From assembly GCA_009930325.1 (NCBI GenBank), contig RZYO01000010.1, forward strand, positions 1 through 41,985: 41,985 bases of DNA. The letters run 5' to 3'. Under the pieces are notes generated by a model. The model had not been told where the DNA came from and did not search any database. It saw only the letters and a list, made by a program, of their open reading frames with translations. Positions 13,919 to 29,889 of the stretch are shown here, piece after piece. A program made the position numbers and the translations under genes. How positions within the stretch are numbered: the first letter of the stretch is position 1; each line of letters opens with the position of its first letter. This DNA comes from Spirochaetia bacterium (GTDB lineage Bacteria > Spirochaetota > Spirochaetia > Sphaerochaetales > Sphaerochaetaceae).

Positions 13919-15538
13919 ATGGATTCCACAAAAAAAGATAAAATTTTTAATTATGCCTTTCTATTTATAGTAATATTATTTATTTCAATTTTAATTAAAA
14001 TAGCACATCTTATGATAAGTGAAAAGGACAAAAGAGTAACATATAACGACCCAATTGTAGCACAAACAATTATTAGAGGAACAATATACGATAGAAATTC
14101 AAATATCTTAGCAATTGAAGTACCTTATTATAGCTGTAGTCTCCGTGTAGACAAAATTCAAGATTTAGAAAAAATCGCTTACATGTGTTCTCCTTATTTA
14201 AACATGAGTGTTGAAGAAATTAAATCTGTAGCATCAAATTATACTTATCAAGCTTTAATAAAAGAAAGAATTAATGATAGTAAAGTAAATTCATTTATTT
14301 CATTTATTAATGATAATAATCTACAAAATGTTGTTAAAATTGAAAAAAAATACGGAAGAGATTATCCATATAGATTCCATGCAGCTCAAAGTATTGGTTT
14401 TGTAGGTTATGATAACAATGGATTAGAAGGATTAGAAAATTCCCTTAATGAAACTCTATACCCAGGACCAGGATTAAATGAAATCATTACTTATGGAAAT
14501 GATGTATATTTAACATTAGATATGAATATACAATATCTATGTGACTTAGAAGTCCAGAGAGTTAATGCTGAATTCGAACCTGAAAGCATAGTAGCAATAG
14601 TTATGGATGCAAAAAATGGTGAAATTTTAGCTCTTTCAAGCTACCCTTGGTATGATCCAAATAACTTTAAGAACAGTAGTATAGAAGATAGAAAAAACAA
14701 TACAATATCAATGTTATATGAGCCCGGCTCGGTTTTTAAAATCTTCTCATTTGCAGCCCTTTTAGATATTAATAGTGCTAATTTTGATGAACCCTTTTAT
14801 TGTGATGGTTCATATGATTTTGAAATAAATGGACAAACTTTTACCATAAACTGTGCGCATGAACATGGAAAGGTTACAAAAGATACTATGCTAAAATACT
14901 CGTGTAATGGAGCAATTAGTAAATGGGCCTTAGAAACTGATTCTAATGAATTCTATAATAAGCTATTAGACTTTGGTTTTGATTCAAAAATTGATATACC
15001 AATGAATGGTATTGCCAGATCTAGAATTCAAAATCCAACGCTGTGGTCATTAAGATCGAAACCAACAATTGCTTTTGGACAAGAATTATTAACTACAGCA
15101 ATAAATATATCAACGGCTGCAACAGCAATAGCAAATAAGGGAATCCTTTTAGAACCTAAAATTATTAAACAAATTGAAGACAATCCTAATGATGAAGTAA
15201 ATACTAAAAGAATTATAAAAGAAAGCACTGCTCAAACTGTACTAGAATCAATGGTGAGAGCAACTGAAGAGGATGGCACTGCTGTAAAAACAAGAGTAAA
15301 TGGAGTAACAGTTGCAGCTAAGACAGGGACTGCTCAATTATTAAATGAAAAGTCGAAAAGTTATGCTGATGGTAAATCTTTAGCATCAACTATTGCAATA
15401 GTTGATGCAACTGATCCCAAATACATAATTTACTTTGCAGCAAAAGCTCCGACAATTAATTCAATTTGGGGAAGTAATGTAGCCTCCCCTGCAATAAAAA
15501 ATATAATTGAAGGACTGACTTCTCAAAATAAACTATAA
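13919..15538 (+). CDS. ftsI: FtsI-type class B penicillin-binding protein (septal transpeptidase)
   Basis: A 539-residue monofunctional DD-transpeptidase that cross-links septal peptidoglycan. It has one N-terminal membrane segment (about 11-32), a class B dimerisation domain starting at RGTIYDRN (53-60), and the transpeptidase domain with all three motifs: S271-V-F-K274 (the nucleophile, in EPGSVFKIF), S328-C-N330 and K468-T-G. Length is typical of FtsI/PBP3. It is not in its usual slot between ftsL and murF; here it is a separate single gene, divergent from the LytM factor. The start has no Shine-Dalgarno and follows a -10 hexamer by 6 bases. Its TAA abuts the stop of the convergent flhF-like gene with no bases between. 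An elongation PBP2 is less likely given the context. Confidence 0.88.
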   Translation: MDSTKKDKIFNYAFLFIVILFISILIKIAHLMISEKDKRVTYNDPIVAQTIIRGTIYDRNSNILAIEVPYYSCSLRVDKIQDLEKIAYMCSPYLNMSVEEIKSVASNYTYQALIKERINDSKVNSFISFINDNNLQNVVKIEKKYGRDYPYRFHAAQSIGFVGYDNNGLEGLENSLNETLYPGPGLNEIITYGNDVYLTLDMNIQYLCDLEVQRVNAEFEPESIVAIVMDAKNGEILALSSYPWYDPNNFKNSSIEDRKNNTISMLYEPGSVFKIFSFAALLDINSANFDEPFYCDGSYDFEINGQTFTINCAHEHGKVTKDTMLKYSCNGAISKWALETDSNEFYNKLLDFGFDSKIDIPMNGIARSRIQNPTLWSLRSKPTIAFGQELLTTAINISTAATAIANKGILLEPKIIKQIEDNPNDEVNTKRIIKESTAQTVLESMVRATEEDGTAVKTRVNGVTVAAKTGTAQLLNEKSKSYADGKSLASTIAIVDATDPKYIIYFAAKAPTINSIWGSNVASPAIKNIIEGLTSQNKL

Positions 15539-16564
15539 TTATATTAATGTATTTTTATTTGCTGACTCCCACATTGATTTAAAATCAATTGAAAAGCCGT
15601 GGAACAAACTCATTATGTAAGAACTATTAGCAGGATATATACCACTTTCAATTTCTTTACCATTGCTAAAAAACATTAAAGGAATGTCTATTTCATTACA
15701 GAAAGATAAAACATTACCAATAGAAGAAGCTTCATCACACATAGTAACAATAACACTTCTTAAATCATATTCATCCTTTAATTGAGTATATGTATGCTTT
15801 AACTCACTTAATTTGTATCTCGCATTAATACATAAAAAATGACCAATATTCTCTTTTTTAATAACATCAAGCATCATATACTTCAAATCTTTTTCAATAT
15901 CACCGATGTCAACTAATATTAAATCATATTTATTAGATTCAGATTCAACAAATTGCCTTAATGCATTAGGGTCTCCAACATGATATACATCTATTTCATA
16001 TAGTTCACATATAGAATTTAATTTTGAGGAACCACCTAAAGAAAGAATTGCAACCTTTCTTCTAGATGATTCTTCAATATCTGTGGAATATAATAATGAT
16101 AGTTTTAACAAAGAAACTGTCTTACCAACTGCAGAAGAACCATGTAAAACAAAGAATTTAGGCGGATTTAACATATTATCTCTGTCAATTTTTGCACTGT
16201 CAATCAAATTATTGACAAGACTTAACTCCATGTCAGTAATATCTTTTACATCATTCCAAATTAAATTTCCAATAACATAATCAATTAAAGGTAATGAAAA
16301 ATCATTAAGTTCTAAAACTTTACGCATTTTAGAAATAACTTCACTAGGTGCCTCAATGCTTTTTGGTTTCTCAATATCGGAGTTCTCACTATCTTCAGGT
16401 ATTTTATCATCTACGAGATAACAAGTAATGGTACAAGAACTTTTTTTTGCAAAAGAAGCTTGATTATTAGTTAATGAATTAATCCTCACAGCTCCTCCAT
16501 ATCTTTGTCTTGCAATTTTTATTGCTTGATCATAATCCTTTGCTTCAATAGTAAGAAACTCCAT
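15539..16564 (-). CDS. flhF: FlhF-like SRP-family GTPase with altered G motifs
   Basis: A 341-residue SRP-GTPase relative, closest to FlhF, which places flagella in many bacteria. The N terminus MEFLTIEAKDYDQAIKIARQ and the end (ASSIGNVLSF, IPLMFFSNGKEIESGIYPAN) align with FlhF. The P-loop GSSAVGKT (142-149) is intact, but G3 DTAG reads DIGD (219-222) and the G4 TKxD reads TMCD (274-277), so guanine recognition and switching are doubtful. It is the last gene of the division operon, 12 bases after hslU. In Borrelia the flagellar operon starting with flgB follows hslU, as I recall. Here only this gene occupies that spot, with no flagellar neighbour in view. Confidence 0.78.
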   Translation of the reverse strand: MEFLTIEAKDYDQAIKIARQRYGGAVRINSLTNNQASFAKKSSCTITCYLVDDKIPEDSENSDIEKPKSIEAPSEVISKMRKVLELNDFSLPLIDYVIGNLIWNDVKDITDMELSLVNNLIDSAKIDRDNMLNPPKFFVLHGSSAVGKTVSLLKLSLLYSTDIEESSRRKVAILSLGGSSKLNSICELYEIDVYHVGDPNALRQFVESESNKYDLILVDIGDIEKDLKYMMLDVIKKENIGHFLCINARYKLSELKHTYTQLKDEYDLRSVIVTMCDEASSIGNVLSFCNEIDIPLMFFSNGKEIESGIYPANSSYIMSLFHGFSIDFKSMWESANKNTLI

Positions 16565-16576
16565 ATGATACTCCCT

Positions 16577-17935
16577 CTATAATATAAATCTTGATAAATC
16601 TTGATCCTGAACAACATCAGAAAGTCTCTGATCAACATATTCTTTAGTTATAGTTATTGTTTGACCACTACATTCATCAGCACTAAAACTTAATTCTTCA
16701 AGTAATTTTTCCATTACTGTATATAATCTTCTTGCCCCAATATTTTCATTTGTAGCATTTACTTCATAAGCTATTTCACTAATTCTTCTTATTGCTTCTC
16801 TATCAAACTCAATATCTACACCTTCGGTTTTTAATAATTCATGATATTGCATTGTTATAGCATTTTTTGGTTCAACAAGGATTCTTTCAAAATCATCAGC
16901 AGTTAATTCTTCTAATTCAACTCTTAAAGGGAATCTTCCTTGTAGTTCAGGAATTAAATCACTAGGTTTTGAGACATGAAAAGCTCCACTTGCAATAAAT
17001 AGAATATGTGTTGTATCAATAATACCCCATTTTGTGCTTACTTGAGTACCTTCTACAATTGGTAAAATATCTCGTTGAACACCTTCCCTTGAAACATCTT
17101 GCCCATTTCTTTGACCTTCTGAAGAAGCTATTTTATCAACTTCGTCAATAAAAATAATACCCATCTGTTCAACACGTTCTTTTGCTTCATCTTTTGCTTT
17201 ATCAGGATCAACCATTTTTTGAGTTTCTTCTTCTCTCAAAAGATCTCTTGCTCTTTTTATTGAACAAGTTCTTTTTTTTGGCTGTTGGAAAATAGAGCCT
17301 AATGAATTCATTGCATTTTGCAAATCATCCATACTTGTAGCACCAACCATTTCAATACCTATATTTGCTTTATTATTTACAGCAATTTCTACTTCTTTTT
17401 CTTCGAATTTGCCATCTTTTAACATTTGTCTAAATTTTTCTCTTGTTGCCTTAGAACTCTCAGCAATTGAACTTGAAGATATTTCTGTTGTTGATACATT
17501 GTTTAATGGTAGAAGTAAATCTAATAATCTTTCTTCAACTTTTTTCTCTACTTCTTCTTTATGAGATTCACTCATTTCTTTAGTAACCATTTGCATGGAT
17601 ATTCCCATAAGATCTCTCACCATTGACTCAACATCTCGTCCAACATAACCAACTTCAGTAAATTTTGTTGCTTCTACTTTTATAAATGGAGCATTACTTA
17701 ATTTACTAATTCTTCTAGCTAATTCTGTTTTACCACAACCTGTTGGTCCAATTAATATCATATTCTTTGGAGAAACCTCATCCCTAATTTCATCAGGTAA
17801 TCTTTTTCTTCTAGTTCTATTTCTAATTGCAACTGCTATAGTCCTTTTTGCTTGTTTTTGTCCAATAATATATTTATCTAACTCTTCAACAATTTGTGAA
17901 GGTTTCATTTCATCTAGTAATGGAATTTTGTTCAT
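16577..17935 (-). CDS. hslU: HslU (ClpY), ATPase of the HslUV protease
   Basis: A 452-residue AAA+ unfoldase that feeds substrates to HslV. Walker A is GPTGCGKT near residue 60, followed by the pore loop in FTEVGYVGRDVESMVRDL. An acidic/basic I-domain insert spans about 110-240. Walker B is GIIFIDEVDKIA, and the sensor region and LQGRFPLRVEL arginine segment follow. The C-terminal tail ending SRFIL docks into HslV. AAGGA lies 6 bases before the ATG. It follows hslV by 13 bases in the same operon. Length and motifs are standard. Confidence 0.96.
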   Translation of the reverse strand: MNKIPLLDEMKPSQIVEELDKYIIGQKQAKRTIAVAIRNRTRRKRLPDEIRDEVSPKNMILIGPTGCGKTELARRISKLSNAPFIKVEATKFTEVGYVGRDVESMVRDLMGISMQMVTKEMSESHKEEVEKKVEERLLDLLLPLNNVSTTEISSSSIAESSKATREKFRQMLKDGKFEEKEVEIAVNNKANIGIEMVGATSMDDLQNAMNSLGSIFQQPKKRTCSIKRARDLLREEETQKMVDPDKAKDEAKERVEQMGIIFIDEVDKIASSEGQRNGQDVSREGVQRDILPIVEGTQVSTKWGIIDTTHILFIASGAFHVSKPSDLIPELQGRFPLRVELEELTADDFERILVEPKNAITMQYHELLKTEGVDIEFDREAIRRISEIAYEVNATNENIGARRLYTVMEKLLEELSFSADECSGQTITITKEYVDQRLSDVVQDQDLSRFIL

Positions 17936-17948
17936 ATTGTTTCCTTAT

Positions 17949-18491
17949 TTATTTTGATAATTCTTCAACGATAATTGAGTTATTTGTATAAATACAAAGA
18001 GAAGCTGCTATTTCAACACTTTTTACAGCTATTTCTTTTGCATTTAAATCTACATTTGAATCTAAATATGCTAGGGCTGCTGAAAGTGCATAATTTCCAC
18101 CAGATCCAATACCTATTACATCATTTTCCGGTTCTACTACATCCCCAGCTCCATTTATTAAAAAGATCTTATCTCCATCGGTAACTATTAGCATAGCTTC
18201 TAATTGTCTTAGAGATTTATCAGTTCTCCACTGTTTTGCTAAATCTACAGCTGCTCTTGTCAAATCACCATTAAATTGTTTTAGCTTTTTTTCAAATAAT
18301 TCAAAAAGAGTAAAAGCATCCGCAGTAGTTCCTGCAAAACCTGTAATTACTTTGCCATTAAACAAATGACGAATTTTATGTGCATTTCCTTTCAATACAG
18401 TATTACCTTGAGTAACTTGGCCATCACCTGCGATAGCAACTTTGCCACCCTTTCTAACTGCAACAATTGTTGTTCCTTTAAATGATCCCAT
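17949..18491 (-). CDS. hslV: HslV (ClpQ), peptidase of the HslUV protease
   Basis: A 180-residue N-terminal-nucleophile peptidase that forms the HslV double hexamer. The catalytic threonine is the first T of [11 protein letters not shown], so a short MGSFKG propeptide must be removed; similar short extensions occur in Borrelia and Thermotoga Hsl[10 protein letters not shown] and [17 protein letters not shown] are family hallmarks. AAGGA is 6 bases before the ATG at 18491; an in-frame ATG at 18506 has no such signal and would overlap xerC. The gene begins one base after the xerC stop, which implies coupling. Confidence 0.95.
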
Positions 18492-18492
18492 T

Positions 18493-19401
18493 TTATTTCC
18501 TTCCATGAGGATGTGATTTTAAATAAACATCTCTCATTTTCTTTTGTGATACGTGTGTGTAAATTTGAGTTGTGGCTAAACTTGAATGCCCTAGCATTTG
18601 TTGAACCATCCTTATAGATGCACCATTATTTAATAAGTGCGTTGCATAAGTATGTCTGAGAACATGTGGGCTAAAGTTCTTTTGCCAACCAAAATCAACA
18701 CGTTGTTTATCAAAAATACTCTCAACAGAGGAAATCGACAAGGGTTTTCCTAAATTTGTTACAAATAATTTATCCCTAATCGATTTTTCTCTAATTTGAT
18801 TATCAATTTGTATCTTAGTTTTTTCTTTAATATATTTATTTAATAAATTTTTAGTTCTATCTGTAAAAAAAACAATTCTTTCTTTATTGCCTTTTCCAAA
18901 TATTACAAAATTATTTTTATTTAAATCAATATCTCTTACACTTAGATTTAGAGCTTCACTTATTCTCATTCCAGTATCATATAATAAACTATATAAAACT
19001 TTATTTCTAAGAGAATTAAAATCAGTAATTTCTATTGATAAAAGAGTTACTATTTCATCTTCACTTAAAAAAGTTGGTAATTTTCTCTCACCTTTTCTCT
19101 GAGATATTGAACTAAAAATATCATTAGATAAAATATTATGTTTTCGACAATATTTTATAAAACCCCGTTGACTACTTATTTTTCTAGATATAGTACTCTT
19201 ACTTAGGTTTTTCTTATTAAGAAATTTTACATAATCTAATGCTATATCTTGTTGCATTGAAAAAAAATCAATGTTTTTATCTATTAAAAAATTATAAAAT
19301 TCTAATATATCTTTTTGATAACTAATTAAAGTCTTTTGACTTAAATTTCTGATATTTTTTAAATATTTAATATAATTATCAATTATTATTTCTACTTGCA
19401 T
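18493..19401 (-). CDS. xerC: Tyrosine recombinase XerC-type
   Basis: A 302-residue tyrosine recombinase with an N-terminal SAM-like core-binding domain and a catalytic domain. The catalytic set is complete: R146 (GMRISEAL), K170, H246 and R249 ([12 protein letters not shown]), H272 (LGHSSLATT) and Y281 (IYTHVS). With the second recombinase at 20275-21150 it likely forms the XerCD pair that resolves chromosome dimers at dif at the septum. Assignment as XerC rather than XerD rests on resemblance to XerC/CodV and on hslV directly downstream, as in the Bacillus codV-hslVU order. AAGG lies 6 bases before the ATG. No sign of a mobile element surrounds it. Confidence 0.85.
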
Positions 19402-19463
19402 ATATTACCTTTATTAATATAAATATAGCATGTATAAGAGAAATAATTCAAATAATAAAATAA

Positions 19464-20228
19464 CTAAAAAGATAAATCATAAATTGAATTAATTGTTTCA
19501 CAGCCATCATTAAAAAGTGAAAAGCTAATCTCATTTATTTTTTTATTTATTGTCGCACTTTTATGAATATAAAAATTTGTTCCTGTATCAATTATTGAGG
19601 TTATCCCATCTTTACAATAATCGCCTATTCCACATTGAAATAATACTAATACATCAATTAATGCTCCATAGATTCCATAATTTAAGTAATAAGTATTCCT
19701 TGTAGGTTTTATATCCATCTCAAAGGGAGAAAGGAATATGACGTTATCAATGCTTGAAAAAACATTTAATCCAGCGGGGATAAGACAATATATAGATTTA
19801 TTTTTTTCTAAATATCCTTGTGAAATTTTTTTTGATATTCCATTATAATTACAAAGAATTAAACCCAAATTATTTTTTGATAATTCGAACCCAAAATTCT
19901 TATAACTATTAATATCTTCTTGAGCATAATTAGAAGATCCTAATACTCCAATATTATATATAAAAGGAGATGGAAAATCGTATGTTGATGCTATTCGAAA
20001 AGGAGGAATAGTTACTTTTTTTAAATCCAAAGGATAGAAAAAATCATCAACAAAAGCACATTTATAATCTTTGAATGAACAATATTTAAATTCTAAATTT
20101 TTTGTTGAATACAATTTATGTAAATTTAAGATTTCCTTTAAACAAAGATTTTGTTTTAAATATTTTATTTTAGATGCTTCGGATAAATTGTTAACCAATG
20201 ATAATAGTAATTTATTTTCATACTTCAT
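19464..20228 (-). CDS. Divergent DprA/Smf-like Rossmann protein
   Basis: A 254-residue protein that I place, with moderate confidence, in the DprA/Smf family. In order it has an N-terminal helical part, PPFRIASTYDFP where DprA has its PPLVLYVRG-type strand, IGVLGSSNYAQ in place of VGSR, CNYNGISKKISQGYL in place of GLARGIDAAAHRGAL, IPAGLNVF in place of LGCGLDRVYP, and TRNTYYLNYGI in place of RRNRLIAGLS. Many invariant residues are changed and the C-terminal winged helix is missing. DNA and RecA loading may therefore be lost or altered. Its place between ftsZ/xerD and hslV matches where I recall smf/dprA in Borrelia. No Shine-Dalgarno is seen. No frameshift or stop interrupts it, so it appears maintained. 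Confidence 0.6.
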   Translation of the reverse strand: MKYENKLLLSLVNNLSEASKIKYLKQNLCLKEILNLHKLYSTKNLEFKYCSFKDYKCAFVDDFFYPLDLKKVTIPPFRIASTYDFPSPFIYNIGVLGSSNYAQEDINSYKNFGFELSKNNLGLILCNYNGISKKISQGYLEKNKSIYCLIPAGLNVFSSIDNVIFLSPFEMDIKPTRNTYYLNYGIYGALIDVLVLFQCGIGDYCKDGITSIIDTGTNFYIHKSATINKKINEISFSLFNDGCETINSIYDLSF

Positions 20229-20274
20229 ATTATATTAACTTAATTACATATAAATTTGCTTTAAAAAATAAAGC

Positions 20275-21150
20275 TTATTTATGATATTTTTTATAAGTTT
20301 CTTCTAAGTCTTTATTATCAATATGAGTATAAATTTGAGTTGTTTGAATATCACTATGCCCTAATAGCTCTTGAACTATTCTTAAATCAGCCCCACCTCT
20401 AAGTAAATGAGTTGCAAAACAATGCCTTAAAGTATGAACATGTATGTGTACATTAGAATCAAAACAATATTGTTCTAATCGCTTATTTATTGCTTGTCTT
20501 GTAAGTTTATTACCTCTTCTCCCTAAAAAAATATACTGTGTTTTTCTTTTTATCAAATTTTGCCTTGCATTATTTAAGTAAAATTCCAACTTTTCTTTTG
20601 CAATATCTCCTATAGGGACATATCTCATTTTATCCCCTTTTCCTTGAACAATTAGAAAATCATTTTGATAATTACTTAATTCTAAATTTATTACTTCACT
20701 TACCCTTAATCCACAGCTATAAATTAATTCAAATAAAGCATAATCTCTTATTGCAAGGTCATCCTTTAATTCAATTGAATTTAATAGTTTATTTATTTCT
20801 TCTTCACTAACAACATCAGGAATAGATTTGTTTATTTTGATTGAATCAAATACATCTAAAGGATTATCTTCCCTATACCTTCTAATTATTAAAAATTTTA
20901 TAAAATTTCGAATTGAACTTAAATTTTTTGCTTGAGAACGTGCACTTAAGGCTCTATCTTCTTTACTAGAAGAAAAATATGATTCAACATCATCGATAGT
21001 AAAATTTTCTACTTTTAAATCATTGTTTTCAAGAAAATTTAAAAAATATTTTACTTCTGTTTTATAAACATCGACGGTCGCATATTGCAACCGTCTTTGA
21101 TATAGTAAATAATCAATATATTCTTTTTGAATTAAAGAATTATCTATCAT
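20275..21150 (-). CDS. xerD: Tyrosine recombinase XerD-type
   Basis: A 291-residue tyrosine recombinase. Catalytic residues are R149 ([11 protein letters not shown]), K171, H239 and R242 ([12 protein letters not shown]), H265 (LGHSDIQTT) and Y274 (IYTHID). The block [25 protein letters not shown] is closer to XerD than to XerC. Its ATG overlaps the ftsZ stop (ATGA), so it is translated in coupling with ftsZ, fitting a role in resolving chromosome dimers at division. The partner is xerC, two genes downstream. A dif site is not visible here and would be expected near the terminus. Confidence 0.85.
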
Positions 21151-22373
21151 TTTTTATTAGAATCCCTTCTTTTTTGATATCTCAACACAGCCGGAATATT
21201 ATAATCATCTGGCTCTCCACCATTGGCTTGTGTACCTATTCTTTGTTGTAAATCTTGCCATCTATTTACAGTTATTGTTGACATATTAGAATTTTCATCT
21301 TTCTCATTTACACTTTCTTGATTTGTAGTATCTTCAACTTTCTTTGATTTTTCACCTTGGGCTGTAAATAAATGTTCACCTACATTGTCATTAGCTCTTT
21401 CAAAACCCGTTGCTACTACAGTAACTTTAACTCTATCTCCAAGATCAGTGTTAAATGATTGTCCAGCAATAATTAAAGCATCTTCAGCACAATTTTCTGT
21501 TATTAATTCTACTACATCTTGATATTCTTGAATTGTTAAAGAATCAGAACCAGCTAAATTAACTAAGACACTCTTTGCTCCATTAATTGATGCATTTGCT
21601 AATAATGGATTACTAATAGCTTGTCTTGCTGCATCTACAGCTCTATTAGCACCTTCTCCAAAGCCAATACCCATTAATGCATCACCTTTGCCCTTCATAA
21701 CTGTTCTAACATCAGCAAAATCAATATTTATTTCACCAGGTTCAGTAATTAATTCAGAAATACCTTGAACACCCATATATAATACTTCATCAGCCATTAA
21801 AAAGGCCTGTTTTATTGGTGTATTATTTTCTACAACATTTAATAAATATTGATTTGGGATAATTATTAATGTATCAACTTGTTCTCTTAATTTATCTATT
21901 CCCTGTTGGGCTAAAGCTAATTTCTTTTTCCCTTCAAATGAAAAAGGTGTTGTAACAACCGCTACTGTTAATGCATTAGATGATTTTGCAACTTCAGCAA
22001 CAATAGGAGCTGCTCCAGTTCCTGTTCCTCCGCCCATTCCAGCGGTAACAAAAACCATATCACAATCTTCTACTTCACTTTTTATATCTTCTTTACTTTC
22101 TAAAGCAGCTTTCTCACCAATTTCAGGAATCCCACCAGCACCTAAACCTTCAGTTAATGCCTTTCCTAAAGTAATTCTTGTTTGCGCATTAGATCTTTGC
22201 AAAGCCTGCATATCTGTATTCATTGCAACAAATGAAACTTTTTTTAAGCCACTAGCTATCATACGATTTATCGCGTTCCCACCTGCACCACCAACTCCAA
22301 CAACTTTAATATTGGTTTCTACAGCTTGGTCTCCTGAAATCATATCTTGTACTTCAAACATTCCAACATCCAT
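21147..22373 (-). CDS. ftsZ: FtsZ, tubulin-like division ring GTPase
   Basis: A 408-residue GTPase that polymerises into the Z ring. The nucleotide site begins at [16 protein letters not shown]. The tubulin signature is GGGTGTG (114-120). The T7 synergy loop is [12 protein letters not shown]. After an acidic linker the C-terminal peptide [16 protein letters not shown] is the docking site for FtsA and other anchors. The start at 22373 is supported by AAAGGAT about 7-9 bases upstream. It follows ftsA by 19 bases. All motifs look functional. Confidence 0.97.
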
Positions 22374-22392
22374 AAATTCTATCCTTTAATTA

Positions 22393-23628
22393 TTACAATA
22401 AAGATTTGAAAAAACTCAAAACTTTATTTCCAAATGATCCATTTTTCTTATTATTTTTTCTTCTACCTGAAGAAGTCTCAATATGTTTTTTAGCATTACT
22501 TTTTAGCAAACCTAAGACTGTTGTATATTGAGGGTTAATATAATTTCTATCTAAACCACCTAAAGCTTCTGGAAAGCCCACTCTACATGGTAATCTAAAA
22601 ATTTCACTTGCTAAATCAGTTACTCCCGAAAGAAGAGCTCCACCACCAACTAAAACAACACCACCACCTAGATTTCCTAAATTAGGTATTGTTAACAATT
22701 CATTTTGTAATCTAGAAAAAATTTCAGCCATTCTTGCTTCAATAACCTTTGCCAATTCTTTTTTTGGCATTTGGATTGCTGGCAAAGAGCCAACACTAGG
22801 TATTGTAAACAATTCATCAATAGAAACTGATGGGACATATGAATGACCTGAATCTATTTTTAATTGTTCTGCTACAGCTTTTGGCTTACTAAAAATTAAG
22901 GCAATATCATCAGTAACAGAATTACCGCCTAAATTAACTCCACCTGTATACATAGGAGTACCATTACTATAAACAATCATATCAGTAGTTCCAGCACCAA
23001 TATTAATTAATACTGTACCCATTTCTTTTTCTTCTGAAGAGAGCGTTACATCAGCATCTGCTAAGCTTTCTAAGGTTGTCCTTCGAACATTTAAACCTAG
23101 ACGTTGAACACATTTTCTATGTGTTTGACATAAAATAGAACTCGCTGTTACAACTAGTACCTTTGTTTCAAGTCTTCGTCCTAACATATCAATAGGATCT
23201 TTAATTCCCGATCTTCCATCAATTTTAAAATCTTGTACTAATAAATGTACAACTTCTCTATCAGAAGGCAATTCAAAAGCTTTTGCAACTTCCATACTTC
23301 TAATAACATCATCTTTTTTTATTTCTTGATCAGGATCACTAATTCCTACAACACCTTGACTAATGGTCCCTTTTATTGATTCTCCACCAACACCAATTAC
23401 TACATCAGTAATTTCAGTGCCCGCAAGTAATTGAGCTTCATTAATCACACTGTTTATTGCACGAACTGCTTGTTCAATATTTATTATTGAACCGTGCAAG
23501 ACACCTTCACTGGCTCTCTCACAAATACTGTCGACCATAAATTGTTCGTCTCGGCCAATAGATCCTATTACACAACGAATAGTTCCAGAGCCAATATCTA
23601 AACCCATCAACACTTTTTCTGCTGCCAA
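22393..23628 (-). CDS. ftsA: FtsA, actin-like membrane anchor of FtsZ
   Basis: A 411-residue actin-family ATPase that tethers FtsZ filaments to the membrane. The phosphate-1 loop is GLDIGSGTIRCVIG. The 1C (SHS2) domain follows, phosphate 2 is VLINIGAGTTDMIVYSNG and the adenosine motif is VVLVGGGALLSGV. A C-terminal amphipathic helix (NKVLSFFKSLL) should insert in the membrane. The start appears to be TTG: GGAGG, formed by the end of ftsQ, stands 8 bases before it, and no ATG lies nearer than codon 8. Position between ftsQ and ftsZ is standard. Confidence 0.95.
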   Translation of the reverse strand: MAAEKVLMGLDIGSGTIRCVIGSIGRDEQFMVDSICERASEGVLHGSIINIEQAVRAINSVINEAQLLAGTEITDVVIGVGGESIKGTISQGVVGISDPDQEIKKDDVIRSMEVAKAFELPSDREVVHLLVQDFKIDGRSGIKDPIDMLGRRLETKVLVVTASSILCQTHRKCVQRLGLNVRRTTLESLADADVTLSSEEKEMGTVLINIGAGTTDMIVYSNGTPMYTGGVNLGGNSVTDDIALIFSKPKAVAEQLKIDSGHSYVPSVSIDELFTIPSVGSLPAIQMPKKELAKVIEARMAEIFSRLQNELLTIPNLGNLGGGVVLVGGGALLSGVTDLASEIFRLPCRVGFPEALGGLDRNYINPQYTTVLGLLKSNAKKHIETSSGRRKNNKKNGSFGNKVLSFFKSLL

Positions 23629-23632
23629 TTAC

Positions 23633-24376
23633 TCACCCTCCGAAAGAACTATTTCGTTCAATTATAGCTCTATGGTATACATCTAATACTTTTTTATTAT
23701 TAGTTGCTCCATTCAGTGCTAACTCAATTGCAGTTTTTAGTAGTTGAGTATTTACTTCCTCACGGACCCTAATTATTGTATTAGTGTTTTTAAATTCTAG
23801 CCTAAAAAAGCCAAAACTATTATTAACATTATTATCGTATTTTACACTACTTATCAAGTAAGAAGAATCATTTAATAAATCAAGGTTATCAATAAATTTG
23901 TTAAATCGACTTAAATTTGACTCTTTAAGCAGTGAATTTAATACATTTTCATCCATTTCAATTTGAATTAATTGATTATCAATTATTGAATTATCATTAT
24001 TATTTATTCTATATAACCCTTTATTACTCAAAATAGCATATTCGTCTTTTCCAATTATCCTAATTATAGCATCAACTTGAGTTTTTTTTAAGCTAATTCT
24101 TAATTTTTTTGATAAGGTTATTTTTACTTTTGCGCTAGCAATAAAAGGATTATTTTCAATTTGCTTTTGTATTTTTTCACAATTAATTCTAAAAATATTT
24201 TTATCATTATAATTATTTAATATTATTTTTAAAGAGGGAGGGATTTCTCCTTGATCAATTGTAACTTCTATTGAATTTATATTAAGGTATTGAGAATTAA
24301 ATAGAGCAAAAAAGATAGAAGAAATAGCCATTAAGATGATAATTGAACTTAGTAATATTTTTTTAGATTTAGTCAA
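23633..24376 (-). CDS. ftsQ: FtsQ/DivIB-like division protein
   Basis: A 247-residue bitopic membrane protein of the FtsQBL subcomplex. A basic N terminus (TKSKK) and one membrane segment (about 7-27) precede a periplasmic part starting with a POTRA-like stretch (YLNINSIEVTI, then FRINCEKIQKQIENNPFIASAKVKITL) and the beta domain. Sequence conservation is low, as usual for FtsQ; the call rests on layout and position between ftsW and ftsA. In-frame ATGs exist at 24415 and 24391, but GAGGAG lies 7 bases before a TTG at 24376 that overlaps the ftsW stop, so TTG is preferred. Confidence 0.85.
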   Translation of the reverse strand: MTKSKKILLSSIIILMAISSIFFALFNSQYLNINSIEVTIDQGEIPPSLKIILNNYNDKNIFRINCEKIQKQIENNPFIASAKVKITLSKKLRISLKKTQVDAIIRIIGKDEYAILSNKGLYRINNNDNSIIDNQLIQIEMDENVLNSLLKESNLSRFNKFIDNLDLLNDSSYLISSVKYDNNVNNSFGFFRLEFKNTNTIIRVREEVNTQLLKTAIELALNGATNNKKVLDVYHRAIIERNSSFGG

Positions 24377-25571
24377 AATACATCTCCTCATAATCAGTTT
24401 TATACTTACTTTCATTTAATAATTTTGAATTATCATTCTCAACAATTTTATTTTTCGATTTAGTATTTGAGGTTTCATAAATTATTTTATGAACAATTGA
24501 TACTAAAATAATAGTGAAAAATAGATTTGTTCCACCTTGAGAGAAAAAAGGAAGTGGAATCCCTGTAGGTGGAAGCAAGGCTGTTACTACCATCATATTA
24601 ATTATTGCTTGTAAAACAATAGAAGTAGTAATACCAAAAGATACAAATGAAAAAAATTTATTACTATTATAATTTGTTTTTGCGACTTTGTAGCCGATTT
24701 GTGTAAATAATAAAAATAATATAATTAATAATAATATACCAAGAAACCCCGCTTCTTCTCCTAAATGTGCAAATATAAAATCATTTTGAACTTCAGGAAG
24801 AATTCCTTTTTTATAATACCCTGCTCCAATAGATTTTCCAAAAAACCCACCACTTGCTATTGCACTTAATGAATTGTTAATTTGATAATTCAAACCAGAA
24901 GGATCTAAGCTTGGGGAAAAAAAAGAAATTATTCGTTTTATTCTATATCCTTGAGAAAATAAGGCTAGAAAGGCAGGCGGCACTAAAAATAAAGCAATAA
25001 CTGACATTATTTTAAAGTTACATCCACAAATTAAAAGGAGTGAAAATGATGTTACTAAATATACAATAGTTGTTGAATAATCTTTTTGTAATAAAATTAA
25101 TGCAGAATTTAATAAGACTAAAGCAATAGGAATAATATCCCTTTTATTATCATCTTTATAATATTTAGCAATAAACAATATAGTTGAAACTTTAACAAAC
25201 TCAGATGGTTGAAAACTTGGAATTGGACCAATAGCTAGCCATCGTTTAGCCCCTAAAATTGTAACTCCAAAAGGAGTAAATAAAGTCATTAACATAAGAA
25301 TAATGGAGACAATTGATAAGGGATAACTCATAATTTCTATAAATTTAAAATTAATAAAATGAATTATTATTCCTACAAAAAAAGCCATTAAAGCAAAAAT
25401 TAATTGCCTTTTTAGAAAATAATCGTGAGGTAAAGAATGAAGTAAAGCCTCATAATATGAGGCACTATACATTATGGTTAACCCGTATAAAACTAAAGAA
25501 AATAGAACAAGAAAGTACACAAAAGGAGATAAGAACAAATCTTCTTCACGCCTTATATGTTTATTTCTCAT
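24369..25571 (-). CDS. ftsW: FtsW, septal SEDS peptidoglycan polymerase
   Basis: A 400-residue polytopic SEDS protein with about ten membrane segments. It polymerises lipid II at the septum together with a class B PBP, here presumably FtsI at 13919. Family signatures include MYSAS near the N terminus, IGPIPSFQPSEFVKVSTI, the loop NDFIFAHLGEEAGFLGILLL and the C-terminal LPPTGIPLPFFSQGGTNL. The upstream TTG/ATG codons at 25601 and 25580 lack a spaced Shine-Dalgarno, while AAGGA is 8 bases before the ATG at 25571. The last 50 residues form a charged cytoplasmic tail. Confidence 0.94.
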   Translation of the reverse strand: MRNKHIRREEDLFLSPFVYFLVLFSLVLYGLTIMYSASYYEALLHSLPHDYFLKRQLIFALMAFFVGIIIHFINFKFIEIMSYPLSIVSIILMLMTLFTPFGVTILGAKRWLAIGPIPSFQPSEFVKVSTILFIAKYYKDDNKRDIIPIALVLLNSALILLQKDYSTTIVYLVTSFSLLLICGCNFKIMSVIALFLVPPAFLALFSQGYRIKRIISFFSPSLDPSGLNYQINNSLSAIASGGFFGKSIGAGYYKKGILPEVQNDFIFAHLGEEAGFLGILLLIILFLLFTQIGYKVAKTNYNSNKFFSFVSFGITTSIVLQAIINMMVVTALLPPTGIPLPFFSQGGTNLFFTIILVSIVHKIIYETSNTKSKNKIVENDNSKLLNESKYKTDYEEMYFD

Positions 25572-25629
25572 TTTACCCATCCTTAAAAAGGAATTATTCA
25601 ACTCCTCAATTCCATTTTTTTACAAATGT

Positions 25630-26601
25630 TCATATATTCCAAGAACAAAATACTAATAGTGCAATTATTGAAAATAAAGTAGAAATCCTAGTAAATTGTA
25701 AAACTATTTTTGTTTCACTATCACCTTTTTTTTCATATAAATGATGAATAGGTGCAATAGAAAACACTTTTTTATTAAAAATTCTTATTGATAAAATCTG
25801 AATAAGAGAAGTAAAGAGTTCAATACTCAACATTAAAGAGGCAATAAGGAATATTATTGAGACCTTTAATGATAAAGAAATCATTAATAATGTTACTCCT
25901 AAAGCCATAGAGCCACAATCACCCATAAAATATTTTGCTGGGTACTTATTAAAATGTAAAAATGCAATTAATGAAGCGCTAATACTTATTGTTATTACAG
26001 TAATAGCTCCATTATTAGGTAGGATCATTGATACAAGTATTAATAAAACACAAATTGGTAAACTCACATAACCAGCCAAGCCATCAAGTCCATCAGTAAT
26101 ATTAAAAGCATTTACAAAATAAACCATTAAAAAAATTAACGCTACATTCTCAATAATTTTTTGAAATAGAGTTTCTCCATTTAAATAAGATATTCCACTT
26201 GAAATATAATTATTTTTTGTTCCGTAAACTACAAAAACAATTGCGATGATAAATTGCCAAACTAGTTTTGTTAAGCTCTTAATTCCATCACCATTATCAC
26301 TTGACCTCTTATAGAAATCATCAACAAAACCTAATAGAGAAAAGCTTAAAATCGATGATAATAAGTATATTAAAAACTTACTTATTGGAGCAAAAATAAA
26401 AGTTGCAACTAAAGTTGCAAAAATGAAGGCAATACCACCCACATTAGGAATATTATCTTTATCTGAATGGAATTCAATTAGTTCAGGTTTATTTTTACTT
26501 ACTAAGTTTGATAAAGTTTTAATCACCAGAATTGAAGTTAAATATGTTAATATATAACTTGTAATAAAAGGAAGCAAAAATAATGAGATAAAATTATTCA
26601 T
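25630..26601 (-). CDS. mraY: MraY, phospho-MurNAc-pentapeptide translocase
   Basis: A 323-residue integral membrane enzyme, about ten segments, that joins UDP-MurNAc-pentapeptide to undecaprenyl phosphate to form lipid I. Recognisable are NVGGIAFIFATL (usually MGG), LLGFVDDFYKR with the catalytic Asp pair, NAFNITDGLDGLAGY, and YFMGDCGSMALG with the active-site Asp. The HH motif near the end is APIHHLYEKKG. The ATG overlaps the murF TAA by one base (TAATG), so it is coupled. Slightly shorter than the usual 350-360 residues. Confidence 0.95.
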   Translation of the reverse strand: MNNFISLFLLPFITSYILTYLTSILVIKTLSNLVSKNKPELIEFHSDKDNIPNVGGIAFIFATLVATFIFAPISKFLIYLLSSILSFSLLGFVDDFYKRSSDNGDGIKSLTKLVWQFIIAIVFVVYGTKNNYISSGISYLNGETLFQKIIENVALIFLMVYFVNAFNITDGLDGLAGYVSLPICVLLILVSMILPNNGAITVITISISASLIAFLHFNKYPAKYFMGDCGSMALGVTLLMISLSLKVSIIFLIASLMLSIELFTSLIQILSIRIFNKKVFSIAPIHHLYEKKGDSETKIVLQFTRISTLFSIIALLVFCSWNI

Positions 26602-27971
26602 TATAAAACTCCTTGAAGTGTCGGCAATAATCTTTCAATTGCCATAGCTCTTGAACCTTTTAATAAAAACAAATCACCTTGCTTTTTATTTTTGTTTACT
26701 GCATAAGTTAATTCTTCAAAATCATCACTATAAAAAAGAGTATCTCGATAATTTTCTTTTTTTAAATATTTATAAGCATTCTCCATTTCTTTTCCATAAA
26801 GAAATGTGCTTTCTAATTTATTATTAAATATATTTTTTGCAATTTGAATATGCGCTTTTTTTGTACTCCTTCCAAGTTCTTTCATAGAACCTAAAACGAC
26901 TTTTTTCTTACCTGACCAATTAATTCTTCTTAAATAACTTAGTATAAAATTTGTTGATATGGGAGAAGCATTATAACAATCTTCAATTACAGTAATATCC
27001 CCATCAACAATTGACCCTCGTCCTCTCATTGGTTCAAAACGAGATAAGCCTTCTAAAATTTGATTATTATCTAAACCTAATTGCTTTGATACAGTAATAG
27101 CCCCAACAATATCTTCTAATAAATGTTCTCCAATAATTGGAAGCTTTACTTTTTGATTATCTATAATTATTTCAATACCAAGTAAGCCTTTATCATTATA
27201 TTTTATATCAGATAAACTATATTCTATCACTTGATTTTTCAAATTTTTACTCAATAATCTCTTATAATTACAATCTTTTGAAATAAAACCTAAATCTAAA
27301 TCTTTATGAAATATTTTACCTTTTTCTTTAGCAATTTTTCTTCTTGAACCAAACTTTTCAATATGTGAATTCTCAATTGTTGTAATTAAAGCTTGATCAG
27401 GTTTTAACATAAAAATATGTTTGTCCATTTCACCAATATGATCTATCCCCATCTCAAAAACACCATACTCGGTAGTCCCATCAATTTGTAAAAGAGATAA
27501 AGGTAATCCAATTTCACTATTATAATTATTTGGTGTATATACGGTATTTCCTTTTGTAGAAAGTAATGCTGCTAAAGCTTGTTTTGTTGTACTTTTTCCA
27601 ACTGAACCTGTAATAGCACTATAATTAATATTTGGAAATTGAGAAATATAATTTTTAGCTAATAATTGCAAGCCTTCAAGAGGAGAGACAACACCAAGGA
27701 TACCAATATCATAATTTTTATATTTAGACAAAATCTCGTTTGCTTTTTCTTTTTTAATCATAATAGCACTGGCACCATTATTAATTGCATCTATAATAAA
27801 TGAATGACCATCAAAATTTTGTCCATCTAAACAAATAAATAGACTATTTTTAGTAATTTTCCTTGAATCAATAACAACATCTAATATTTTTTTAGATGTT
27901 TGTTTTATAACAACTGCTTGTGCAAATCTTGCTATACTAAAGATTCCATATTTATATGTTGAAAAAGCCAT
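26601..27971 (-). CDS. murF: MurF, UDP-MurNAc-tripeptide--D-Ala-D-Ala ligase
   Basis: A 456-residue Mur ligase that completes the cytoplasmic pentapeptide precursor. The N-terminal domain has DSRKITKNSLFICLDGQNFDGH. The ATP loop is TGSVGKSTTK (about 121-130; the usual TT is ST). The central domain holds NNYNSEIGLPLSLL and FEMGIDHIGEM. The C-terminal domain has MRGRGSI and the DCYNASP block. GAAGG precedes the ATG. It is flanked by ftsL and mraY. No murE lies in this window. Confidence 0.95.
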   Translation of the reverse strand: MAFSTYKYGIFSIARFAQAVVIKQTSKKILDVVIDSRKITKNSLFICLDGQNFDGHSFIIDAINNGASAIMIKKEKANEILSKYKNYDIGILGVVSPLEGLQLLAKNYISQFPNINYSAITGSVGKSTTKQALAALLSTKGNTVYTPNNYNSEIGLPLSLLQIDGTTEYGVFEMGIDHIGEMDKHIFMLKPDQALITTIENSHIEKFGSRRKIAKEKGKIFHKDLDLGFISKDCNYKRLLSKNLKNQVIEYSLSDIKYNDKGLLGIEIIIDNQKVKLPIIGEHLLEDIVGAITVSKQLGLDNNQILEGLSRFEPMRGRGSIVDGDITVIEDCYNASPISTNFILSYLRRINWSGKKKVVLGSMKELGRSTKKAHIQIAKNIFNNKLESTFLYGKEMENAYKYLKKENYRDTLFYSDDFEELTYAVNKNKKQGDLFLLKGSRAMAIERLLPTLQGVL

Positions 27972-27983
27972 TTTAACCTTCTT

Positions 27984-28262
27984 TTATTCATTTTTTGCCA
28001 TTTGCAAATCTAAATCTTGTAAAAGTGCCATTTTATAAACACTTTCAGGGGTTTTTAAGGAACTAATTAAACTTAATTCCTTATTTCTTCTTTCAACTAA
28101 TATTTCTCTTTCTTTCATTAACAAAGAATGTTCATTCATTGCACTTTGATTTAATCCACTTAAATAAGCGGGTGTAAAAAGACTTGTAAAGGTTGTAGCA
28201 ATAGTAAATATTGTTAATGCATGAGAAAAGTTTAACTTTATGTTTTCATTTTTTCTTAACAT
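27984..28262 (-). CDS. ftsL: FtsL-like bitopic division protein
   Basis: A 92-residue protein. After a short polar N terminus there is one membrane segment (about 14-36, ALTIFTIATTFTSLFTPAYL), then a coiled-coil-like stretch (MNEHSLLMKEREILVERRNKELSL, written here across its heptads) and an SSLKTPESVYKMA ending that resembles the conserved end of FtsL. Sequence identity in FtsL is always low, so position between rsmH and murF carries much of the weight. GGAGG is 5 bases before the ATG at 28262; the frame extends to a TTG at 28274 that overlaps this signal. Confidence 0.75.
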   Translation of the reverse strand: MLRKNENIKLNFSHALTIFTIATTFTSLFTPAYLSGLNQSAMNEHSLLMKEREILVERRNKELSLISSLKTPESVYKMALLQDLDLQMAKNE

Positions 28263-28302
28263 TTCAACCTCCAAGGTTTTTAAATCAAAATTTTACAATT
28301 TA

Positions 28303-29232
28303 TTATATTCTTTCAATCACTCTTAACTTTGCACTTCGGCTAGGAGGATTTATTTTATTTTCTTCATCTGTTGCGACTATTGGTTTTTTTGTAAGTATTT
28401 TAACCATAGGTTTCGATCCACAAGTACACCTCATTGCTTCAGGAGGACAGGTACATCCTTTTTCCAAATTTTTGAATGTCCACTTGACAATTCTATCTTC
28501 TAAAGAATGAAAAGAAATAACAGCCATTCTTCCACCAACTTTTAAAGATTTAACAGCATTTGTTATTGTACTTTCAATTCTATCAAGCTCATGGTTTACT
28601 TCAATTCTTAAAGCTTGAAAGGTTCTAGTAGCAGGATGTATTCTTCCATGTTTATATCCTTGCGGAACACTTTTAAAAATAATGCTCTCTAGCTCACTTG
28701 AACTTGTTATTTCATTAAGTTGCCTAGCTTCACAAATGGCCTTCGCAATCCTTCTAGAATATCTCTCCTCACCATATTTAAAAATAATATTAGCTAGATC
28801 ATCTTCCTTATAGGTATTTACTACCATTTGTGCAGTTAGCTCACTTTTTTCATTTAATCTCATATCAAGTTTTTCTTCTTTTTTAAAAGAAAACCCTCTA
28901 TTAGACTCTTCATAATGAAAAATACTAATCCCCAAATCAATTAAAACTAAATCCAATAATGGTCCATCATATTCTTTAAAGTAATCATCAAACCACGTAT
29001 GGACAGGAATAAAACGGTCTCCAAATTCTTTCATTCTGAATTTAGCTTTCTCTTGAATATGTTCATCACAATCTAATCCAATTACAGTTAGATTTGGATG
29101 AGTATTAAGCATCATAAATGTATGACCACCCTCACCGGTGGTACAATCAACCATTAGTGGATTACTCTCATTTATTGGTATTAAGAATTCTTTTACTTCT
29201 TTTGCCATTACTGGATAGTGTACAAATTCCAT
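28303..29232 (-). CDS. rsmH: RsmH (MraW), 16S rRNA m4C1402 methyltransferase
   Basis: A 309-residue SAM-dependent methyltransferase that modifies C1402 in the 16S rRNA decoding centre. It opens with FVHYPVMAKEV, then the SAM-binding VDCTTGEGGHTFMML, the LIDLGIS block, RGFSFKKEEKLDMRL, and the late motifs GGRMAVISFHSLEDRIVKW and LTKKPIVATDEE. A Cys-rich stretch CTCPPEAMRCTCG is family-typical. GGGAG is 5 bases before the ATG at 29232; the frame extends to a GTG at 29244 that overlaps the mraZ stop. It lies second in the division operon. Confidence 0.96.
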   Translation of the reverse strand: MEFVHYPVMAKEVKEFLIPINESNPLMVDCTTGEGGHTFMMLNTHPNLTVIGLDCDEHIQEKAKFRMKEFGDRFIPVHTWFDDYFKEYDGPLLDLVLIDLGISIFHYEESNRGFSFKKEEKLDMRLNEKSELTAQMVVNTYKEDDLANIIFKYGEERYSRRIAKAICEARQLNEITSSSELESIIFKSVPQGYKHGRIHPATRTFQALRIEVNHELDRIESTITNAVKSLKVGGRMAVISFHSLEDRIVKWTFKNLEKGCTCPPEAMRCTCGSKPMVKILTKKPIVATDEENKINPPSRSAKLRVIERI

Positions 29233-29243
29233 TTTTTCTCCCA

Positions 29244-29687
29244 CTACTGATTCATTTTACTAAATAGTTCAGCACTTGCTTCTTCAATATCTGCTCTTTC
29301 ATTTATTGCTTGATAGTTAGATAAACTCCAAATTTCAATAAATGGTCCAGCATTAATCAATATGCCTTCACTTTTATTATCTAAACCAACATCTTCTCTC
29401 AAAGCTCTTGGTAAACTTATCCTATTTACCTTATCAATCTTTATATCCATAGCAGGAGCTATAAATCGTCTTAATAACATTCTGCTATTTCTATCAAACA
29501 TTGATGCCGCACTTTTATTTATGGTATCTTTAATTAATTGGAAGTCTTTTATTGTAATTATTTGTAAACAGTTATCAACACCATATGTTAGAATATAAGG
29601 TTCACTTTCTAGCGTTTCCCTAATTTTTGAGGGAACTAAAAAGCGTCCTTTTTCATCTATAGTAATTTTAAAGATTCCTGTATCCAC
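29244..29687 (-). CDS. mraZ: MraZ, DNA-binding regulator of the division cluster
   Basis: A 147-residue double AbrB-fold DNA-binding protein that usually represses its own operon by binding repeated boxes at the promoter. The two half domains are marked by TIDEKGRFLVPSKIRETL and DKVNRISLPRALREDVGL, with the DFQLIKDTINK and SRMLLRRFIAPA helices between. GGAG lies 9 bases before a GTG at 29687, which gives the usual N-terminal length (VDTGIFKITIDEKGR); an in-frame TTG at 29702 overlaps the Shine-Dalgarno. It leads a long operon down to 15539. Four phased repeats upstream (29726-29764) are likely its own operator. Confidence 0.94.
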   Translation of the reverse strand: MDTGIFKITIDEKGRFLVPSKIRETLESEPYILTYGVDNCLQIITIKDFQLIKDTINKSAASMFDRNSRMLLRRFIAPAMDIKIDKVNRISLPRALREDVGLDNKSEGILINAGPFIEIWSLSNYQAINERADIEEASAELFSKMNQ

Positions 29688-29725
29688 TTTAAAAAACTCC
29701 AATAATTAACAATTTTGTATAAATT

Positions 29726-29764
29726 TACCACTATTCAACCCTAATATTACACTAAATACCACTA
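29726..29764 (-). promoter_or_regulatory. Four MraZ-box-like direct repeats in the mraZ promoter region
   Basis: Minus-strand units TAGTGGTA (29764-29757), TAGTGTAA (29754-29747), TAGGGTTG (29743-29736) and TAGTGGTA (29733-29726) begin 10, 11 and 10 bases apart, one helical turn each. MraZ of other bacteria binds G-rich direct repeats with a period near 10. A weak promoter (TTGTTG, then TGTAAT after 18 bases) would overlap them. Confidence 0.65.
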
Positions 29765-29861: not shown

Positions 29862-29889
29862 CAAAAAAACCTAGAGAGGACCTCTAGGT
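29862..29889 (-). terminator. Terminator of the GH57/DUF4912 operon
   Basis: ACCTAGAG and CTCTAGGT form a perfect 8-bp stem around 5 bases (29869-29889), followed on the minus strand by seven T. It lies 27 bases past the stop at 29916 and separates this operon from mraZ. Between it and the MraZ boxes only AT-rich sequence is seen. Confidence 0.88.

Follow-up and report, generated by a model that had tools for sequence, protein, structure and literature searches.

A phased array of four short direct repeats stands directly upstream of mraZ in a Spirochaetia bacterium of the family Sphaerochaetaceae, and it is very probably the operator through which MraZ, encoded by the next gene, represses mraZ and the dcw genes. 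We analyzed the whole 41,985-nucleotide stretch that contains it, referred to here as the window. The preliminary description had placed four octamers at positions 29,726 to 29,764, with starts 10, 11 and 10 bases apart, and all four are present there on the minus strand (Table 1). It had also read them as phased direct MraZ boxes immediately in front of mraZ, which their positions bear out. The array ends 38 bases before the mraZ start; on its other side stands a terminator-like hairpin that belongs to the GH57 gene upstream. Its make-up is that of a three- or four-repeat MraZ operator, with a GTG-containing core repeated at steps of about 10 bp directly upstream of the mraZ/dcw cluster and with two of the four boxes degenerate.

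Table 1. Features of the array and its surroundings, in positions of the window
Feature	Position	Strand	Remarks
Co-directional genes: rsmH, 96-aa frame (ftsL position), murF, mraY, ftsW, ftsQ-like, ftsA, ftsZ, two xerC/D-type recombinases with a 254-aa frame between, hslV, hslU, SRP54-type GTPase	15539..29244	-	
mraZ, likely GTG start, 147 aa, predicted cognate regulator	29244..29687	-	PF02381 68.3 bits; DxxxR in both halves
GGAG, putative ribosome-binding site of mraZ	29697..29700	-	equivalent position in G001
Putative MraZ box 4, TAGTGGTA	29726..29733	-	strongest; 11.6 bits, outgroup-trained motif
Box 3, TAGGGTTG	29736..29743	-	degenerate; core identical in G001
Proposed -10, TAATAT	29744..29749	-	weak match, overlaps box 2; TTG-N20-TANNNT register; best -10 near same register in 32/64 family members
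Box 2, TAGTGTAA	29747..29754	-	degenerate; GTG abuts proposed -10; core identical in G001
Putative MraZ box 1, TAGTGGTA	29757..29764	-	strong; 8.6 bits, outgroup-trained motif; core identical in G001
Proposed -35, TTGTAA	29767..29772	-	weak match; TTG-N20-TANNNT register, box at +18 in 4/4 genus members
Terminator-like hairpin parting the upstream GH57 gene from mraZ	29869..29889	-	

The gene that follows the array encodes a recognizable MraZ. Its start is likely the GTG at position 29,687, nine bases after the GGAG; in the alignment to the nearest congener, these two fall opposite an ATG and a GGAG. The protein contains two PF02381 stretches that score well above the cut-off of 23 bits, and residues D11, R15, D85 and R89 of its DxxxR motifs are invariant in 19 aligned MraZ sequences, the window's included. 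Its score against the TIGR00242 equivalog model is 81 bits, below the cut-off of 98.35, and it is also below the cut-off of the remaining named MraZ models; judged by these scores, it is a divergent member of the family. No PF02381 match other than its two repeats occurs in the 3.5-Mb assembly. Among the 80 loci retained from 394 confirmed ones, the MraZ of Pleomorphochaeta sp. isolate JB015 is the closest named one (L083, 76% identity), followed by that of a 'Spirochaetaceae bacterium' at 51% and then by uncultured Spirochaetales and Sphaerochaeta-type records. Querying with the MraZ alignment retrieved named relatives, and RsmH as the lone query found none. By sequence, the protein also matches the structure-bank MraZ entries 9qlr, 9qlg, 9sx6 and 1n0e. 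Our literature search found no paper on spirochaete MraZ or on a structure of MraZ with DNA.

We learned a binding motif from 100 nonredundant spirochaete mraZ upstream regions, thinned from 117, with the four members of the window's genus set aside and with L160, L048 and a region that contained ambiguous letters left out. The motif that emerged from this outgroup set, AAAGTGG[GT]AA, is phased at 10 bp: same-strand sites peak at a spacing of 10 bases (71 pairs, compared to 0.2 in shuffles), with further peaks at 20-21, 30-31 and 41 bases. When both strands of the 42-kb window were scanned with it, the array ranked first at 16.2 bits, and the runner-up, at 16.0 bits, falls within the ftsA coding frame. 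An equally good array arose somewhere in the 84 kb of both strands in 7/100 shuffles of the whole window and in 1/5000 shuffles of the 213-nt intergenic region. The whole-window result means that the score alone is no proof and that position carries much of the case. Additionally, TAGKG occurs 85 times on the two strands (24 + 61), and four copies at a spacing of 10-11 occur once. Boxes 1 and 4 supply the array score, and boxes 2 and 3 fall below 0 bits with the outgroup-trained motif. A spirochaete MraZ motif is now available from these 100 regions.

Conservation of the array follows mraZ. From 202 loci we obtained 146 distinct upstream regions, counting identical regions once and dropping L004, L048 and L160 as too short for the comparison. 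With a score of at least 12 bits as the threshold, arrays were called in 141/146 of the mraZ upstream regions, in 0/137 distal controls taken 400-600 bases upstream, and before rsmH in 0/3 genomes that have rsmH and no mraZ match. These three usable mraZ-less genomes belong to families other than the window's. Six mraZ-less genomes come from the window's own family, and they look like assembly gaps because rsmH was not found in four of them and is cut short in two. The array is thus found with mraZ and missing without it, with the congener G003 failing by score. Within the genus, scores are 13.7 for the window, 14.8 for G001 and 22.1 for G002, compared to 0.4 for G003, where a 10-base rhythm of GTGG/ATGG repeats is visible by eye only. 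Comparing the repeats in related genomes, the check that the preliminary description had called for, was therefore positive by score in two of three congeners, and across the regions overall. The array also stands out from its surroundings in the alignment to the nearest congener (G001, Pleomorphochaeta sp.), with 36/41 positions identical compared to 37/78 and 20/39 in the flanks.

This alignment also defines the core of the repeats. The preliminary description had given it as TAGKGK, which does not hold: in the nearest congener, neither the leading T nor the A after it is fixed (AAGTGG, ACGTGG, AAGGG). The window and G001 agree in all 24 core letters, whereas the letters preceding the cores differ. 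Because of this pattern, we take the conserved core to be (A)GTGGKA. One base separates it from the GTGGG of the E. coli boxes, and it agrees with the AAAGTGKN3 motif stated for Mollicutes in PMC5282649. In many members of the window's family, the upstream-region comparison finds GTGTA in slot 2, and slot 3 is ATGG-like in Sphaerochaeta-type relatives. If box 3 is placed by homology to the Sphaerochaeta-like arrays, its start may lie one base earlier, and the spacing would be 10-10-11 instead of 10-11-10. In other spirochaetes (for example L003, L011, L014 and L129), boxes 1, 2 and 4 are strong and slot 3 is regularly TAGG- or TAGA-like, not GTGG, which reads as a conserved degenerate third box.

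The array closely resembles operators described in distant bacteria. In E. coli K-12, the mraZ operator likewise consists of same-strand direct boxes in 10-bp steps just before mraZ. Its boxes TCAGTGGGAA, ATTGTGGGGC, AAAGTGGGAA and TAAGGGGTGA are spaced 10-10-10 and score 32.8 with the spirochaete motif. The core there is GTGGG, compared to GTGGT in the window, and the array is downstream of a -10-like TAAACT, whereas the window's proposed -10 lies inside the array. The dcw operator of Burkholderia cenocepacia, as presented in PMC7761207, has four 7-nt repeats with 3-nt spacers and a shared GTG motif and is specifically bound by MraZ; its repeats follow the -10 and cover the start site, unlike the register proposed for the window. 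The Mollicutes site, given as (AAAGTGKN3)3 in PMC5282649, has the same AGTGK core and 10-bp period, and box 2 of the window (AGTGT) fits its K = T. The dcw cluster of Mollicutes is described as short, unlike that of the window (PMC5282649, PMC8475190). Closer to the window, Sphaerochaeta-like arrays (L025, L069, L097) share its layout: box 1 falls in the proposed -35/-10 spacer, and slots 2, 3 and 4 read GTGTA, ATGG and GTGG. These arrays carry an extra TCCCA half-box shortly after the last GTGG, which 0/4 members of the window's genus have.

MraZ, an AbrB-like regulator, forms ring-shaped oligomers. It has been described as an octameric toroid (PMC7761207). Boxes one turn apart would present one face of the helix, and neighboring MraZ subunits could grip successive boxes together. 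Once MraZ has accumulated, its ring would cover the mraZ promoter or start region and block RNA polymerase. Such negative feedback would hold mraZ and the dcw genes at a set level, through ftsZ and possibly through hslVU. Assigning the array to MraZ follows from its motif rank, its association with mraZ and its footprint against G001. The preliminary description had considered autoregulation by MraZ likely, and the association of array and mraZ supports this; that MraZ binds here, that it represses instead of activating, where the promoter lies and how far the operon extends are each something we infer. The element is of a familiar kind, and it places a spirochaete genus, a Pleomorphochaeta relative, within the scheme by which MraZ controls the division genes.

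The most serious competing explanation concerns the sign of regulation. MraZ is described as an activator in mycoplasmas, and it might bind here and activate transcription as well. The same AAAGTGK box type occurs in Mollicutes (PMC5282649), and MraZ overexpression in M. gallisepticum is reported to go with raised FtsZ (PMC8475190). However, E. coli K-12 MraZ is annotated as a repressor and is called one in PMC8475190, and the boxes overlap the proposed -10/start region in the family, a position that is usually repressing. We therefore consider activation unlikely.

Whether MraZ is the protein that recognizes the repeats is a separate matter, as similar repeats serve other regulators, such as HsdC with (GTGTTAN5)2 in Mollicutes (PMC5282649). 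The array, however, tracks mraZ (141/146 with the gene, 0/3 without), and the outgroup and E. coli arrays before mraZ share its motif; a different direct-repeat regulator is accordingly most improbable. Smaller still is the chance that these are fortuitous repeats in A+T-rich DNA. Whole-window shuffles do yield an equally good array now and then, but the position of this one, its rarity in intergenic shuffles, its conservation across the family and, for one genome pair, its conservation above the flanks all speak against chance. Repression by MraZ remains the reading that we favor.

Where the promoter lies relative to the array is a more tentative matter. A weak pair of hexamers, TTGTAA and TAATAT, is separated by a 17-base spacer that contains box 1. 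Box 2, whose GTG merges with the proposed -10, would owe its GTGTAA form to this overlap. We compared best-scoring -10 elements, using sigma-70 weights, in nonredundant sets of 64 regions from the family and 20 from outside it, with 46 to 52 named regions that were unsorted by family excluded. Outside the family, 13/20 regions have the best -10 upstream of box 1, at 43-47 bases before the box-4 G. For the family without the window's genus, 32/64 regions have it inside the array, at 15-18 bases before this G. The pattern TTG-N20-TANNNT occurs in 45/64 family regions, in 2/20 outside the family and in 4/4 members of the genus, each of which has a box at +18; it was picked after seeing the data, and its reversed control occurs in 2/64 regions in the family, but in 9/20 outside. 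Among the family regions with this pattern, a box lies 13 bases before the start of the -10 in 26, and 17 or 18 bases after it in 22 and 14, respectively.

These counts suggest a family-specific arrangement in which the array is inside the core promoter: the -35/-10 spacer would hold box 1, the -10 would be fused to box 2, and boxes 3 and 4 would cover the start. In other spirochaetes, E. coli and B. cenocepacia, by contrast, the whole array follows the -10. Most members would also have added an in-phase inverted half-box (TCCCA) that is missing from the window's genus. In this scheme, MraZ and RNA polymerase would be rivals for the promoter itself, with slot 2 double-coded. We regard this scheme as possible, and give it slightly less than an even chance. 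For the window itself, an embedded promoter likewise falls somewhat short of even. The TTGTAA/TAATAT pair is outside the window's top five promoter scores, and a competing pair, TTTACA-18-AATAAT at 29,810-29,781, scores better with a 10/12 match. It would place the array downstream of the -10, and its register differs in G001. Should the embedded register prove correct, nature would provide two operator placements of one regulator for comparison, which could help explain why MraZ has been reported as a repressor in some bacteria and as an activator in others.

The inverted half-box has the form RTGG-N8-CCC (mostly GTGGKANNNNWTCCCA) and occurs in 55/64 nonredundant family regions and 1/20 outside (examples are L025, L042, L051 and L069). 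As it is found in 0/4 members of the window's genus, it is not part of the finding for the window. It stays in 10-base phase and could represent either a further binding element or an extension of the MraZ site specific to this lineage. On the reverse strand of the outgroup regions, sites of the full motif are hardly more frequent than in shuffles (10 compared to 7.05), and we rejected inverted boxes as ordinary MraZ boxes there.

We also searched the assembly for a second operator. GTGGTA-N23..26-GTGGTA occurs once in 3.5 Mb, as does its reversed-pattern control. Apart from the array, a single AGTGGTA-AGTGTAA pair occurs (C224, L204); it falls within a repetitive coding frame, and we took it as chance. 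This frame, at positions 1-492 of L204 in the same genome, is situated at a contig start and contains about six PVVQE repeats. Because the array occurs once in the assembly, MraZ probably has one main target in this genome, with the reservation that degenerate arrays would escape the patterns used.

Downstream of the array, all genes from mraZ to position 15,539 run in one direction, and no gap between them exceeds about 62 bases. Judging by this co-directional gene order only, a single 14-kb transcript is possible. Two of the frames (19,464-20,228 and 27,984-28,274, minus strand) have no Pfam or NCBIfam match, the second being at the place expected for ftsL. Between 13,000 and 30,000 there are nine terminator-like sites, compared to 4.2 in shuffles, some of them on the minus strand inside the cluster. 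One such hairpin, at 21,095-21,073 on the minus strand in the recombinase gene just after ftsZ, has 10 pairs, 6 of them G-C, and a poor T tail. At the far end, a penicillin-binding transpeptidase gene on the plus strand (13,919-15,538) faces the end of the cluster.
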